NCBI GenBank assembly: GCA_013821605.1
Contig: JACDGP010000032.1
Location: 1-47,538 of the forward strand
Direction: 5' to 3'
Origin: Herpetosiphonaceae bacterium
GTDB taxonomy: Bacteria; Chloroflexota; Chloroflexia; Chloroflexales; Kallotenuaceae
Length of the DNA stretch: 47,538 nucleotides
Part shown: piece by piece, positions 15,312-47,538 of the stretch
Position numbering within the stretch: the first letter of the stretch is position 1
Layout of the letters: each line of letters starts with the position of its first letter
Notes under the pieces: model-generated
Seen by the model: the letters and a program-made list of their open reading frames with translations, nothing else
Databases searched by the model: none
What the model was told of the DNA's origin: nothing
Program-made: the position numbers and the translations under genes

Positions 15312-15340
15312 TTGCAAATTAACCTGTGATGTGGTATAAT
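15312..15340 (+). promoter_or_regulatory. Strong sigma70-type promoter of the 8-oxoguanine deaminase gene
   Basis: TTGCAA (15312-15317), 17-bp spacer, TATAAT (15335-15340), followed by ACGCAC. The predicted start near 15347 gives a leader of about 300 nt before the ATG at 15650. A very similar promoter drives the other long leader at 43486-43513. Confidence 0.65.
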
Positions 15341-15414
15341 ACGCACATGTGTGCTGTCCACCAACTACGGTCACAAATCTCCGAACTTGCTCCTCATTAC
15401 GTCGACTCAGTGCT

Positions 15415-15517
15415 ATTGATCCCATTGATCCGATTGTTAATTCATTGTTATTGCATTGTTTTTTGTATTGCTCCGCCTCGCCATGCCAAGCTTACGAGCA
15501 ATGAATCGACCATTGCT
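15415..15517 (+). promoter_or_regulatory. ATTG-rich leader element, copy 1
   Basis: Bases 15416-15463 match 43264-43217 on the opposite strand at 41 of 48 positions without a gap, including TTGTTAA, CATTGTTAT and GCATTGTT blocks. Downstream lies a dyad ATTGCT (15467-15472) with AGCAAT (15497-15502), and then AGCAATG (15497-15503) with CATTGCT (15511-15517); these can form alternative stems. A GCATTGGGATGC block follows at 15546-15557 and recurs at 43125-43136. The element lies within the predicted transcript, so it may act as RNA structure or as an operator array. The rest of the 406-bp interval 15244-15649 holds no convincing gene. Confidence 0.7.
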
Positions 15518-15649
15518 TTTTATTGCTCCCGAATCGGCTTTTACCGCATTGGGATGCCAAATGTCAAAAATGTCCGTTAGGCGACAGGATCAATAGGAAC
15601 AATAGATTGCCGCATGTTACTATGAGCGCTCTACAAACTGGAGAACGCT

Positions 15650-17014
15650 ATGCCCTCGTTGCTGGTTACGCATGCCGACACGCTAGTTACGATGGACGAC
15701 GCTGACCAACGCTGGGAAGATGCCGGGCTGTATGTAGTCGATAACGTGATCCAACAGGTTGGGCCGACTGCCGACCTGCCGGAGCAGGCCGATCAGCAGA
15801 TCGATGGCCGCAACCTGCTGGTGATGCCTGGTCTGGTAAACACGCACCATCATTTTTACCAAACGCTGACCCGCAACGTTCCGGCCGCTCAAAACTCCAA
15901 CCTCTTTAACTGGCTACGTACGCTGTATCCCATCTGGGCCGACATGACCCCCGCGGCTATCCGCGTCAGCACCCAAATTGCCCTACTCGAATTGCTGATG
16001 AGTGGCTGTACTACCGCCAGCGATCATACCTACATCTGGCCCAACGGTGCGACACTCGATGATCAGATCGAGGCCGCCCTCCCCATCGGCGTTCGCTTTC
16101 ACGCCGCCCGTGGCTCCATGTCGGTCGGCGAAGCCCAAGGTGGCCTGCCGCCAGACCGGGTCGTCGAGGACGAGGACGCAATCTTGCATGACTCGCGCCG
16201 GCTGATCGAGCAGTATCACGATCCCGAGCGCTTTGCCATGCTACGCATCGTCTTGGCACCCTGCTCGCCCTTCTCGGTTTCACCGGACCTAATGCGCCAA
16301 AGCCTGGAGATGGCCCGCGCCTATGGCGTGCACTCCCATACCCATCTGGCCGAAACAATGGATGAAGTGATTTATTGCCAGGCCACCTTTGGCCACTCGC
16401 CGCTTGAACTGGCCGAAGAGCTCGGCTGGATGGGTGAGGACGTGTGGCATGCGCATATGGTTCATCCGACTGCCGACGAGGTCGTGCGCCTAGGACGCAG
16501 CCGGACCGGCGTAGCCCATTGTCCAAGTTCCAATATGCGCCTAGCCTCCGGCATTGCACCCCTCCTCAGTCTGCTGGCAGCGGGCGCGCGTGTGGGCTTA
16601 GGGGTCGATGGCTCCTCGTCGAATGACAGCTCGCATTTGCTGGCCGAAGCGCGCCAGGCGCTCTTACTCCAGCGCGTCCTGGGTGGCCCAGCCGCGATCA
16701 CCGCCCCTGCCGTCCTACGCTTGGCCACGCGCGGCGGTGCCGAGGTGCTAGGCCGCGACGACATTGGCTACCTGGCCCCCGGCATGGCCGCCGACTTCAT
16801 CGGCTATCGCCTTGACACGCTGGCCTTCGCAGGTGCCGCCGTGCATGACCCGCTCACTGCCCTCGTCTTTTGCCAGCCTCCGCAGGTCTCGCTCAGCGTC
16901 ATTAATGGCCGTGTTCGCGTCCAGGACGGCCAACTCGTTGACATTGATCTCCGCCCGGTGATCGAGCGCCACAACACCATCGCGCGCGCGCTGGTACGGG
17001 GCGAGCTAGTCTAG
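15650..17014 (+). CDS. 8-oxoguanine deaminase (amidohydrolase superfamily)
   Basis: 454 residues. Converts 8-oxoguanine to urate and ammonia; related to ATZ/TRZ-family chlorohydrolases and guanine deaminases. Metal-site motifs: NTHHHFYQ (H66-68), HTHLAE, WHAHMVH and GVDGSSSNDSSH. The signature stretches QNSNLFNWLRTLYPIWA, FHAARGSMSVGEAQGG and APCSPFSVS fit the 8-oxoguanine-specific subgroup rather than plain guanine deaminase. ATG with GGAG 8 bases upstream. It converges with the xanthine dehydrogenase operon, only 5 bp apart at the stops, and its product urate is also that enzyme's product. The long conserved leader suggests dedicated regulation. Confidence 0.9.
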   Translation: MPSLLVTHADTLVTMDDADQRWEDAGLYVVDNVIQQVGPTADLPEQADQQIDGRNLLVMPGLVNTHHHFYQTLTRNVPAAQNSNLFNWLRTLYPIWADMTPAAIRVSTQIALLELLMSGCTTASDHTYIWPNGATLDDQIEAALPIGVRFHAARGSMSVGEAQGGLPPDRVVEDEDAILHDSRRLIEQYHDPERFAMLRIVLAPCSPFSVSPDLMRQSLEMARAYGVHSHTHLAETMDEVIYCQATFGHSPLELAEELGWMGEDVWHAHMVHPTADEVVRLGRSRTGVAHCPSSNMRLASGIAPLLSLLAAGARVGLGVDGSSSNDSSHLLAEARQALLLQRVLGGPAAITAPAVLRLATRGGAEVLGRDDIGYLAPGMAADFIGYRLDTLAFAGAAVHDPLTALVFCQPPQVSLSVINGRVRVQDGQLVDIDLRPVIERHNTIARALVRGELV

Positions 17015-41193: not shown

Positions 41194-41979
41194 CTACCGA
41201 TGATGCTGGGTGATGGCCAGGACGCGTAAGGGGCTGCCACTGCCATCAACGATTTTGAGTGGAGCAGCGATGACGACTGCTCCAGTTGGTGGAAGCTGGT
41301 CGAGGTTGCATAAGCTGGCCAGACCAAACTTGCCAGCACCGTGCATGGTCGTGTGATTGGGGAAGGGCGGGTCGAAGGTGCCGGCCTGACCGGCATCAGT
41401 GCCCACGGTCTCGACGCCGACGCCGAGCACATCACGCTCGTGCGCTAAGAATGCTGAGGCGGATTGGTGGAAGCCTGGACTATGAGCGCCATCTGGTCCA
41501 ACATTCAAGAATGTCTCTGGATCGCTGCGCTTGCTCCAGTCCGTGCGCAACAACACCCATGCTCCGACCGGAATACGGCCATATTGGGCTTCCCACGCTT
41601 GAATATATTCCGGCGTTAGCAGAAAGTCGGGATTCGTGGCTACTTCTTGCGTTACGTCAATCACACAGGCAGGCCCAACAAAGCGCCGGGCTGGGATCGT
41701 ATCGCAGCGATTGTCGGGTATATCTTTGCCGGTGATCCAGTGCACAGGCGCGTCGAAGTGCGTGCCCGTATGCTCGCCCAATTCGATTTTATTCCAGTAC
41801 CAACCCGGGCCGCGCTCGTCGTAGCGCGAGATGACTTCCATCGACAGGCCCGGCGACGAGGCAAAGATCGGCGGTAGGCCGATCACCGGCGTGGCGGGAC
41901 CGAGGGGCTGGGTTAGATCCACCACTTGGAGACGACCGTCAACAAGCTCCGCGATTAATTGCGTGAGTACGTTCGACAT
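41194..41979 (-). CDS. Cyclase family protein (kynurenine-formamidase-like metal hydrolase)
   Basis: 261 residues from the ATG at 41979, with GGAGGAG close upstream. The metal-binding HTGTHFDAPVHW (70-81) defines the family; a second conserved histidine lies in NHTTMHGAGKFG. Members hydrolyse amides or lactones of small acids (kynurenine formamidase, isatin hydrolase). It follows the two ThDP decarboxylase subunits by 14 bp in the same operon, so it should act on a related small carboxylic compound. The substrate is unknown. Confidence 0.85.
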   Translation of the reverse strand: MSNVLTQLIAELVDGRLQVVDLTQPLGPATPVIGLPPIFASSPGLSMEVISRYDERGPGWYWNKIELGEHTGTHFDAPVHWITGKDIPDNRCDTIPARRFVGPACVIDVTQEVATNPDFLLTPEYIQAWEAQYGRIPVGAWVLLRTDWSKRSDPETFLNVGPDGAHSPGFHQSASAFLAHERDVLGVGVETVGTDAGQAGTFDPPFPNHTTMHGAGKFGLASLCNLDQLPPTGAVVIAAPLKIVDGSGSPLRVLAITQHHR

Positions 41980-41993
41980 TGGGACTCCTCCAG

Positions 41994-42557
41994 TCACATT
42001 TCGCGCAGGTGGCGTTGGAATTGAAAACGGTTTTCGAGCATCGCTAGATCGGTCAGGAAGATGGGCGGTCCTTTGGCCTCAACCTTGGCGACTAAAGTCG
42101 TGAGTTGATTGGAAGCGAGGGCTGCATCAAAGGCGGTGCGAAAATCATCAAGGCTGGCCACGGTTGCAGTACGCGGGATACCAGCGCCTTGCGCCATCAC
42201 GGCAATGTCACTACCTGTCGCAGTCGCCGTGGGAAAGCCGCCGACCGAGAGCAGGCTCTCGTTGTCGAATACGACATGGACGAGATTATGCGGGCGGTAG
42301 CGAGCCATGGTGGTCAGACTGCCAAGGTTCATTAAGATCGAGCCATCACCATCAAGGACGACGACTTTGAGTTCGGGACGACTCAGGGCGATACCCAAGC
42401 CCATGGAAGAGGCGAGCCCCATGGCATGGAGCAGGTAAAAGAAGTTGGGCCGGTGGCCAAGCGATTGAAGCTCAGCCGAGACCGCGCCCATGATCGTCAC
42501 GACAACGCAGCGCTCTAGCTGCGGATACACGGACTGCAAGGCATCAATACGCAGCAT
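41994..42557 (-). CDS. ThDP-dependent decarboxylase, cofactor-binding (ComE-like) subunit
   Basis: 187 residues starting at the ATG of a TAATG junction with the partner subunit. Thiamine diphosphate motif LDGDGSILMNLGSL (69-82) through VVFDNE (96-101), preceded by HAMGLASSMGLGIAL. This is the C-terminal PP-binding half of enzymes such as sulfopyruvate decarboxylase ComE or phosphonopyruvate decarboxylase. Needs the PYR-domain subunit for activity. Confidence 0.87.
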   Translation of the reverse strand: MLRIDALQSVYPQLERCVVVTIMGAVSAELQSLGHRPNFFYLLHAMGLASSMGLGIALSRPELKVVVLDGDGSILMNLGSLTTMARYRPHNLVHVVFDNESLLSVGGFPTATATGSDIAVMAQGAGIPRTATVASLDDFRTAFDAALASNQLTTLVAKVEAKGPPIFLTDLAMLENRFQFQRHLREM

Positions 42558-43069
42558 TATTCCTCCCACATGAGGTCACGGCACAACAGCAAGGCAACCG
42601 GTTTGAGCGATGCCTCGGCCAGGGTTTGGGCTTGGCGAATGCGGTGGGCAACGTGGCTTGGATCATCAAGCCGGTTGAAGGGAATGTGCAGCGCTTGCAG
42701 CAGGGCCTCGGTGTTACCGCCGCCCTCGGTTTGCCAGGGATCGCGCTCGCCGAACTCGCCACGGTAGCTCACGAGCATGAGCAATGGGATGCGGTACAGG
42801 TGGGCCAGCGAGACGATGCCGTTAATACTGGCCAGAAAGCCATGGTTTTGCATGAGCATGGCTGACTTCACGCCGGCCAGATGTGCGCCCGCCGAGATGC
42901 CTATGGCTTCCTCTTCCTTGGCCAGCCGCACCATATGAACGTCGGGGTCCTCGTCGGCCATACGGATCAGATGCACCAGCCAGGTCTCGGGCAGGGCTGA
43001 AAACATGCGGATGCCGCAGGCTTTGAGCGAGTCATAGATCAGCTGCGAATTACGGACGGAGACAGGCAT
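42557..43069 (-). CDS. ThDP-dependent decarboxylase, PYR-domain (ComD-like) subunit
   Basis: 170 residues with the cofactor-activating glutamate in RLAKEEEAIGISAGAHLAG (E52-E54) and QNHGFLASINGIVSL. Together with the next gene it makes a split alpha-keto acid decarboxylase like sulfopyruvate or phosphonopyruvate decarboxylase. No phosphonate or coenzyme M genes are nearby, so the substrate could be another 2-oxo acid. AGGGAG lies 8 bp before the ATG. It is the first gene of the operon, behind a leader of about 410 nt. Confidence 0.87.
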   Translation of the reverse strand: MPVSVRNSQLIYDSLKACGIRMFSALPETWLVHLIRMADEDPDVHMVRLAKEEEAIGISAGAHLAGVKSAMLMQNHGFLASINGIVSLAHLYRIPLLMLVSYRGEFGERDPWQTEGGGNTEALLQALHIPFNRLDDPSHVAHRIRQAQTLAEASLKPVALLLCRDLMWEE

Positions 43070-43086: not shown

Positions 43087-43100
43087 CATTGCTAGCAATG
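43087..43100. promoter_or_regulatory. Perfect palindrome CATTGCTAGCAATG
   Basis: A 14-bp palindrome 17 bp upstream of the decarboxylase start. Its half-sites CATTGCT and AGCAATG are the same ones that make the dyads in both leader elements, here back to back. A dimeric repressor site or an RNA stem near the ribosome site are both possible. Confidence 0.7.
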
Positions 43101-43188
43101 GAAATCCAGGAGTACGGACTTTTCGCATTGGGATGCGCTATTTCGCGATGTGGGAGCAATAAGGAACAACGTCCAACGCTTGTTAATG

Positions 43189-43265
43189 CATTGCTAAGAC
43201 GGCAAAAAAGCAATGAAAGAACAATGCGATAACAATGATTTAACAACGGGAGCAATGGGAACAAT
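43189..43265 (-). promoter_or_regulatory. ATTG-rich leader element, copy 2
   Basis: On the minus strand 43264-43217 matches 15416-15463 at 41 of 48 positions without gaps. It is followed by CATTGCT (43215-43209), 13 nt, and AGCAATG (43195-43189), which can form a 7-bp stem in the RNA. The mismatches do not follow codon third positions, so a conserved peptide is unlikely. It lies in the leader of the decarboxylase operon. Confidence 0.7.
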
Positions 43266-43276
43266 GACGAACTCGT

Positions 43277-43425
43277 GGTACAAACATGGCCTCCGCTTGG
43301 TACAGGAGCCGACACCACTTGGTACATTTACGTTCAACTTTGGTACAGTACCAAGATTTTTGGTACATTCACGTTCAACGTTGGTACACGGTACTGATAC
43401 ACCGTTTTCGATTTTCCCTGGTACA
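43277..43425. repeat. Array of TGTACCA sites at helical spacing
   Basis: GGTACA (TGTACC on the minus strand) starts at 43277, 43299, 43321, 43342, 43362 and 43383, spacings of 22, 22, 21, 20 and 21 bp, with a further copy at 43420. Two units share ACGTTCAAC between the sites, and TTGGTACAGTACCAA (43340-43354) is a perfect dyad. Spacing of two DNA turns places all sites on one face of the helix, as expected for cooperative protein binding. The 507-bp interval 43070-43576 contains no convincing gene. Confidence 0.85.
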
Positions 43426-43485: not shown

Positions 43486-43513
43486 ATTATAGCACGTATA
43501 TTCGGAAAAGCAA
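43486..43513 (-). promoter_or_regulatory. Promoter of the decarboxylase-cyclase operon
   Basis: Minus strand: TTGCTT (43508-43513), 16-bp spacer, TATAAT (43486-43491) with TG one base ahead (TGCTATAAT) and ACACCC after. Predicted start near 43479, so the TGTACCA array and the ATTG element lie downstream of the start, inside the transcript. Confidence 0.6.
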
Positions 43514-45085: not shown

Positions 45086-45904
45086 CTAAGCATCTGAAGA
45101 GGGAAAGGCCGTGTCCAAACCAAGAAGTGCTAGTTCCTTGTGTACATAGCCGAGTACAGCAGCCTCCAATTCATCGGGGTATGGGTAGCTGTGCTTTGCC
45201 GCGATGATACGACCATGCTCCTCCATGATACGGGCCAACTTCATCTGGGCCTCAGCTAGGCTTACCTGCGACAGGTCCTGCATCGATAAAGCATCTTCGA
45301 TGGATTGCCGGATATCATCGGGCAAAAACACATTCAAACGCTTCACCCCACTTTCACGGGCAATGCCGTAGCCGGAGATCAGAACATCCGTTAGAATATT
45401 TGTCTCGACGGTTAGGCCTGCGAACGCAACTATCAACTCCTTCCGTCCAACCACTGGCGGTAGGAGAGAAATACAACGCCAGAATTCCTTCGTCTGCCTC
45501 AGCAAGACTTTCGCAACAGTTGACGGATCCCGTGGCTCAGCAACATGCTCGTATTGAACTACATTGCCGGTTTGAAAGAGGATCTGTGTTTTGGCCGGGT
45601 CGACGGAGACCAATTTTTCCCCGTGCAGCCAGACATCTAGCCGCAGCCCATCCTCCGTAAGGGCGTTCACCATCGTGTCGTTGAAGAGCAGGTTGAAGAG
45701 CACCAAAGGTCGGATACGAGACAGCCAGGCTTCGACGCTGGCTTTGAAATCGTGGAGATCGGATTCATCAAGCAACAGATGGATGTCTAGATCAGAATAG
45801 CGATCGGCGTTGCCCCTGCCGAAGCTCCCCGCAAGCCATGCCGCTTTAATACGACCATCGGGCTCAGTTTGTGCTATGAGTGCCTGTATGTATTCTTGTT
45901 GCAT
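45086..45904 (-). CDS. Nucleotidyltransferase-domain protein (aminoglycoside-adenylyltransferase-like)
   Basis: 272 residues. Pol-beta nucleotidyltransferase motif GSFGRGNADRYSDLDIHLL (26-44, metal Asp38/Asp40) and a further acid in LRLDVWLHGEK. A helical C-terminal domain follows. It resembles streptomycin/lincosamide-type adenylyltransferases, but key substrate residues cannot be assigned, so antibiotic modification is only a possibility. Single gene, convergent with the methyltransferase. Confidence 0.8.
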   Translation of the reverse strand: MQQEYIQALIAQTEPDGRIKAAWLAGSFGRGNADRYSDLDIHLLLDESDLHDFKASVEAWLSRIRPLVLFNLLFNDTMVNALTEDGLRLDVWLHGEKLVSVDPAKTQILFQTGNVVQYEHVAEPRDPSTVAKVLLRQTKEFWRCISLLPPVVGRKELIVAFAGLTVETNILTDVLISGYGIARESGVKRLNVFLPDDIRQSIEDALSMQDLSQVSLAEAQMKLARIMEEHGRIIAAKHSYPYPDELEAAVLGYVHKELALLGLDTAFPSSDA

Positions 45905-46343: not shown

Positions 46344-47538
46344 AAGCTAGGCTTTATCCATATTACGCCGCAAAGGCAAGTGTGTCTGTTAGACGCGTCA
46401 ATAAGGCGCGTGGAATTTCCACAACATCGGGTTTGGCCGGTGACAGGTAAGAAAGAGTGACAGGCCAAAGCTGCCGGCGCACGAAGGCTAACGTATCCGC
46501 AAAGGTCGGTGCTGCTTTCGTGTACCACGCCGCTTGACGCACGGGCAAGGCTGCCCCCTGCAGCAACTGGTGGGCGAACAAGACGACTAATGAAAAGAGG
46601 CCCAGCAAGGCTGGTGTCGTACGCAGAATCGCAAGCTCCGCCCATTGGCGTTGGGTTTCGACACCGAGATGGCTCCGCACTTCGTGAAAGGTGACTTCCA
46701 GTTGCCAGCGCATCACAAACCACTCCACGATCTGGCGGGTCGTGCAGCTCAGGTCGGTGCACAGCACCGCTTGGGGCGTGAACTTCTCATCTGGGTCACG
46801 AATGAGCACCCAACGGATGGCGACGGGCAGCATCCCGGCGTGGTACCAAAGTGCCGTGTTGGTCGCAACCTCAATCGGTCGCGCTCGTGCGCCATACCAC
46901 TGGACCGTGACCATCTCCCAGCTGGTTGTCGGTGCCGCCAACCGTGCACGGAGGGGTGGTTGGCGCTTGCCTTTGCAGCGTGGTCGACCAATCGTCTGCT
47001 GGCTGCGCGACGGTGCAGCATCATACAAGGCCGCGTCCAAGCGCAGGCGCGTGACCATCGTGACGGGCTGGGGCAATCGCGTGCAGCGGGCGAGCAAGTC
47101 GAGGACCGCATAACTTCCGTCCGCAACGACGACGATGCGGCGGTTCGGCAGCCAGCGCCGCAGCTGCAGGATCATCTGACGACCCCAAGCGGGTATCGTC
47201 TTGTGGCGTCGCCCCCGCTGGGCGGCGTAGCGTTCCGATGGAGCCAGGACGGTCAGAAAGGGCAAGGCCCACACCCGACCAATCCAGGGAATCGGCGTCA
47301 ACAGCTGCATCGAGACCCAGCGCAGCCCACCCGTCTTGACAAAGTGCGTCGCGCTCGAGCGCACGGGATCACGATAAATACCGCGGGCTGCGATCTTCAC
47401 ACCACGACGGCGCTCAATCGTTTCATCGAGACCAACCACAATTGGCAGGTCAGCGGCCACAAAAGCGCGCACCAGACTGTGGAGCAGGACGGCACTGAGG
47501 GTGCGGCTCGACCAGACTGCGCGATTGAGGACGCGGTG
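46344..47538 (-). mobile_element. Insertion sequence with DDE transposase, cut by the window end
   Basis: One end lies near 46341-46350, where homology to the interrupted hydroxylase stops. The element continues past 47538, so its terminal repeats and target duplication cannot be confirmed. Confidence 0.7.
46363..47538 (-). CDS. IS4/IS701-like DDE transposase, partial at its N terminus
   Basis: The reading frame is open to the window edge: beyond the internal GTG at 47472 it continues as HRVLNRAVWSSRTLSAVLL, so the true start is outside. Catalytic acids: D in VVGLDETIERRRG, D in VVVADGSYAV, E in WQLEVTFHEVRSHLGVETQRQW (a YREK-like motif with R and the QRQW tail). It cuts and joins DNA at the ends of the element. 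No frameshift or stop is visible, so it may be active. Confidence 0.87.
   Translation of the reverse strand, partial: HRVLNRAVWSSRTLSAVLLHSLVRAFVAADLPIVVGLDETIERRRGVKIAARGIYRDPVRSSATHFVKTGGLRWVSMQLLTPIPWIGRVWALPFLTVLAPSERYAAQRGRRHKTIPAWGRQMILQLRRWLPNRRIVVVADGSYAVLDLLARCTRLPQPVTMVTRLRLDAALYDAAPSRSQQTIGRPRCKGKRQPPLRARLAAPTTSWEMVTVQWYGARARPIEVATNTALWYHAGMLPVAIRWVLIRDPDEKFTPQAVLCTDLSCTTRQIVEWFVMRWQLEVTFHEVRSHLGVETQRQWAELAILRTTPALLGLFSLVVLFAHQLLQGAALPVRQAAWYTKAAPTFADTLAFVRRQLWPVTLSYLSPAKPDVVEIPRALLTRLTDTLAFAA

Follow-up and report, generated by a model that had tools for sequence, protein, structure and literature searches.

The window analysed here, that is, the whole stretch of 47,538 nt, contains two gene leaders that resemble each other. 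Copy 1 lies on the forward strand ahead of an 8-oxoguanine deaminase gene (15650-17014; NF006055, 671 bits against a cut-off of 532). Its promoter (15312-15340) consists of TTGCAA, 17 nt and a TATAAT with TG extension, and is followed by an ATTG-rich module, hereafter the ATTG module (15413-15605). This module is bounded by a 19-bp terminal inverted repeat matched at 17 of 19 positions (15413-15431 with 15587-15605), and encloses an inner dyad ATTGCTC...GAGCAAT (15467-15502; 15467-15473 with 15496-15502), which shows compensatory changes among other copies of the same type, as well as a GCATTGGGATGC hairpin (15546-15557). Copy 2 is read on the reverse strand ahead of an operon (41194-43069) encoding sulfopyruvate-decarboxylase-like alpha and beta subunits, both scoring under the NCBIfam cut-off, and a PF04199 cyclase. 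Its promoter core (43486-43503) precedes an array of seven TGTACCA sites (43276-43425) spaced mostly by 20-22 nt (TRF period 21), which is followed by an ATTG module (43087-43266) that holds a dyad CATTGCT...AGCAATG (43189-43215; 43215-43209 with 43195-43189) and a GCATCCCAATGC hairpin (43125-43136), and terminates in CATTGCTAGCAATG (43100-43087). Near copy 2, also on the reverse strand, are a DDE_5 transposase (46363-47472) and a streptomycin-adenylyltransferase-like protein (45086-45904).

A preliminary description of this DNA had reported an ungapped match of 41 of 48 positions between the two leaders. Direct alignment of 15416-15463 (+) with 43264-43217 (-) returned exactly this value, while the best ungapped 48-mer from 300 shuffled pairs of both leaders reached 29 of 48, and profiles indicate that the similarity extends well past 48 bp. 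The dyads and the TATAATACrC promoters were likewise located at both copies. The hairpin sequence said to be common to both holds only in part: the same 4-bp stem is present twice, but on the transcript strand the loop is inverted between copy 1 and copy 2.

Genome searches established that the two leaders belong to a dispersed family. Using copy 1 and copy 2 as blastn queries against their own genome (5.88 Mb in 259 contigs) yielded 24 and 32 matches, respectively, and a sequence profile of the ATTG module, built from 17 copies, found 38 matches at E<=0.0013. The same profile had no match in 99 relatives, nor in a sample of 400 genomes of the phylum apart from the source genome itself (399 others), where the larger genome searches ran under stricter filters able to lose weak matches. 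Exact 18-mer matches elsewhere (85,000 genomes and IMG/VR) fell mainly in scattered AT-rich taxa and were judged to be chance; a profile search of these taxa gave no convincing copy (best E 0.0024). The cassette family occupies about 50 places and is confined to one genome among those searched. Since these included no second genome of the genus, the family may predate this species. The shared element was described with too narrow a scope: its conserved dyads and its co-oriented position ahead of genes stand, but it belongs, as a single module, to a family dispersed over the intergenic regions of the genome.

A complete cassette starts with an extended -10 promoter, often followed by an array of TGTA(A/C)CA sites, then by the ATTGYT array with its dyads, and finally by the gene. 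Two main types of ATTG module were recognised. Type A, about 195 bp long and framed by the terminal inverted repeat, comprises copy 1 and seven further loci (L009, L010, L011, L012, L013, L017, and L020). Type B, to which copy 2 and no fewer than 16 further copies belong, is devoid of this repeat and has the 3' end seen in copy 2. More diverged copies are found at L019, L023, L028, L030, L073, and L193-L196, and others are truncated at their 5' or 3' side. In types A and B alike, ATTGYT-like units follow one another through the 5' half of the module with a period of about 10-11 nt; the distance from one [AG]TTGN motif to the next is mostly 9 nt (40 gaps) or 11 nt (60 gaps), and some copies differ in length by whole units, such as an extra 11-nt unit in L026 and 12 nt missing from L069 and L011. 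This arrangement brings to mind the boxes of phosphate-type response regulators, which are 11-nt direct repeats.

Most type B modules are preceded by the second array, with 5-10 TGTA(A/C)CA sites whose commonest spacing is exactly 21 nt (91 gaps). Inverted partners of these sites track the array type, as TGTAACA copies are accompanied by TGTTACA and TGTACCA copies by TGGTAC, a pattern compatible with inverted binding sites as well as with hairpins. The cassette family is modular, because its parts also occur separately: the TGTA(A/C)CA array is found without an ATTG module, and the ATTG module can be reduced to its 3' third (C193, C29:2223, and C137), which is joined straight to a promoter in C193 and to arrays in C29 and C137. 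At L185:2337-2410(+), an array-only cassette directly abuts a separate promoter and a tRNA gene; ending just before these, the array does not form an mRNA leader there. Two further repeats were seen beside cassettes, namely a dispersed hairpin repeat, GTCGGCGGAGCCGACTT...CCGAACTTCAGTTCAGGGC with variants, in the upstream flanks of L018, L020, L070, and L188, and a CCGCGCACTGGGAGAGG-containing repeat common to L018 and L070 directly after the cassette.

The ATTG-module copies have an orientation bias relative to genes. Scored on ORFs no shorter than 115 aa rather than on curated gene calls, the next ORF was co-oriented with 31 of 37 ATTG-module copies (binomial p 4e-5), the other six facing a convergent gene; of the array-only copies, 7 of 10 face a convergent ORF. 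The genes behind the cassettes include NuoB (preceded by a short ORF), an isocitrate-type dehydrogenase, cysteine synthase, threonine synthase, a MiaB/RimO-family protein, a MoxR-type ATPase, an ABC permease, hydrolases, Uma2, and DUF2961. No pathway was found to be common to these genes, the 8-oxoguanine deaminase and the sulfopyruvate-decarboxylase-like operon included.

Such a distribution raises the question of whether the family consists of non-autonomous transposable elements (MITE or REP-like), in which case the promoter and the location ahead of genes would be incidental. The multiplication to about 50 places in a single genome, the degenerate and truncated copies, and the terminal inverted repeat of type A are what such an element would leave behind. 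Against this speak the strong co-orientation with the next gene, the conserved promoter at the 5' boundary, and the lack of terminal inverted repeats in type B. Furthermore, no target-site duplication was seen by eye, and no transposase element with a matching terminal repeat turned up in about 1 Mb (a sixth of the genome). As no empty site was recognised either, among genomes that included no second one of the genus, mobility can be inferred from copy number only. We consider this explanation rather improbable. The preliminary description had itself named a dispersed repeat as the finding under which a specific regulatory role would fall; with about 38 module copies the element is largely such a repeat, although its 31:6 bias towards co-orientation and its attached promoter show that it is not inert.

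Cassettes of all types begin at a TGnTATAAT promoter, and many have GAAC or GCAC four bases 5' of the GTG (GMAC-N4-GTG). The resulting GAAC/GCAC-N4-GTGnTAYAMT is the recA promoter pattern of the same genome (GAACAGACGTGCTATACT) and matches the lexA box GAAC-N4-GTTC, of which the lexA gene of this genome carries a perfect example (GAACAGGTGTTC). Genome-wide, GMACNNNNGTGBTAYAMT occurs at 23 sites and its reversed-pattern control at none; 20 of the 23 lie at cassettes or arrays (the pattern led to the discovery of new arrays at C202 and C211), one at recA, and two (C70 and C235) at non-cassette positions, while relatives have 0-12 sites. The exact box is present in 17 of 36 cassette promoters but in none of 69 background extended -10 sites, drawn from both strands of 0.69 Mb of other contigs (Fisher 5e-10), and a wider form that counts an upstream GAACN4GTT raises the number of cassettes to 26 of 36. 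Many cassettes bear an operator of the form found at lexA and recA of their own genome, but the window copies differ in this respect: in copy 2 the LexA-like box departs from the GAACN4GTGC form by one mismatch and leads straight into TATAAT (GAATATACGTGC), whereas at copy 1 it is degenerate beyond recognition (CCTGTGATGTGG). Judged by these promoter motifs, many cassettes are probably LexA-controlled. A 74-aa protein consisting of a LexA-type DNA-binding domain only is encoded at L201:973-1197(+) (matched part, C16:1012-1182 of the same genome), with GAACATTCGTAC just 5', divergently from a type A cassette.

As in LexA (SOS) regulon promoters of the GAAC-N4-GTTC type, for instance the SOS box CGAACN4GTTCG of B. 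subtilis (PMC9578287), the cassette operator overlaps the promoter and has the form of the genome's own recA and lexA sites. Two features set the cassettes apart: a long repeated leader accompanies their operator, and the genes behind them are mostly metabolic, unlike a DNA-repair regulon.

A different explanation is that the leaders constitute a class of cis-regulatory RNA, riboswitch-like or protein-binding, in which defined hairpins control the downstream genes. Most copies do lie in leaders, and type A has a mean folding z of -3.9, with 42 predicted pairs, of which 9 are changed on both sides, a value as high in only 1 of 500 shuffles. In helix 1 of type A, though, A-C and G-U departures are about equal, as expected of a DNA dyad, and the opposite strand folds about equally well. 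The consensus fold of type B is weak (RNAalifold -5.7 kcal/mol, mean z about -1.7), comprising one reasonably supported hairpin in whose dyad G-U variants and, at a few pairs, changes on both sides were seen; departures in type B favour G-U over A-C, but the helices were picked by a program that permits G-U. Alternative hairpins can be drawn, as AGCAATG is able to pair with CATTGCT upstream or downstream, and one terminator-like hairpin is present at 15496-15518. An attenuator with terminator and antiterminator, which these two AGCAATG partners brought up, was rejected, as several copies of type A (L009 and L012) do not preserve the pairing.

Like T-box and other leader RNAs, the cassettes are located in leaders and can form alternative hairpins, but they have neither a conserved single fold nor coherence of pathway, and an Rfam search left the element without a match, its hits being a T-box and tRNAs at other positions. 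The T-box leader (RF00230, 100 bits) is situated at L027:1547-1768(-), downstream of a cassette gene. Altogether, RNA structure in the leader modules has limited support, and we regard an RNA class as unlikely, if somewhat less so than a MITE or REP-like element. The riboswitch-like link once proposed between the 8-oxoguanine deaminase and the ThDP decarboxylase operon was not supported, given about 38 copies before unrelated genes, the missing Rfam match, the weak type B fold, and the A-C tolerance of type A helix 1; it is improbable that the leaders act as riboswitches with purines or 2-oxo acids as ligands. Being two of about 50 cassette copies before unrelated genes, many with a recA-like operator, the window leaders are probably not a riboswitch common to two pathways. 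The other early proposal, an operator cluster read by one regulator, persists in altered form, as a LexA-type promoter box plus two arrays of putative binding sites.

We also considered whether the module codes for a small hydrophobic peptide, in the manner of SOS-induced type I toxins. In one subtype (L193, L195, L196, and L019), frames starting MS(H/Y)P.. and preceded by a good Shine-Dalgarno sequence run through the ATTG module and are leucine-rich, so that they may encode such peptides. For the family as a whole this was rejected: in other copies the frame is lost, with stops in all three frames and indels of 1 and 11 bases, and variation has no period of three (p 0.46 and 0.84), in keeping with the original remark that the differences do not favour codon third positions. 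As a general explanation it is very improbable.

Taken together, we favour, with reasonable though not high confidence, the reading that the two leaders represent different subtypes within a dispersed and lineage-specific family of promoter-leader cassettes, which often have LexA-type operators and which place unrelated genes under a common promoter type. The degenerate or missing LexA box of the two window copies, downstream genes unlike a DNA-repair regulon, and the copies that face a convergent gene weigh against it. A complete cassette would supply its own sigma-70-type extended -10 promoter, often with a LexA/SOS-type operator overlapping it, followed by one or two tandem arrays of near-integer helical periodicity (21 nt for TGTA(A/C)CA, 10/11 nt for ATTGYT) and by dyads, running into the gene. 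Copies may have spread via duplication or recombination, and as the cassette multiplied, modules would have been lost or exchanged within the genome. LexA would repress many of the cassettes and DNA damage would induce these, while the arrays might bind a protein or form alternative hairpins, tuning expression of the downstream gene. A more far-reaching version, which we put forward as no better than tentative, is that DNA-damage-inducible, self-propagating cassettes rewired dozens of housekeeping genes in one Chloroflexota lineage, and that the 21-nt TGTA(A/C)CA and 11-nt ATTGYT arrays are two new kinds of array of tandem binding sites, read by a protein or an RNA switch.

The favoured reading has precedents. 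In promoter propagation, or horizontal regulatory transfer (Matus-Garcia et al. 2012, as cited in PMC9944727), similar promoter regions are reused before unrelated genes of a genome, and the cassettes likewise place a similar promoter ahead of non-homologous genes within one genome. Compared with propagation as outlined in that citing passage, they form a long modular unit, found in about 50 places, that combines a LexA-type box with two tandem arrays. Like the cassettes, REPINs and other dispersed intergenic repeats (PMC8049555) make up a population of short non-coding repeats within a single genome, dyads and decaying remnants included, but the cassettes carry a promoter, point toward genes, and contain tandem arrays, and no RAYT or transposase partner showed up in the roughly 1 Mb searched for transposase elements. 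If confirmed, the family would illustrate with unusual clarity how multiplication of a whole promoter-leader unit can rewire regulation, and genes of respiration, amino-acid metabolism, and tRNA modification may have become tied to the SOS response in one lineage. Its approximately 50 natural variants provide a ready set for studying how such cassettes spread and what binds their arrays.
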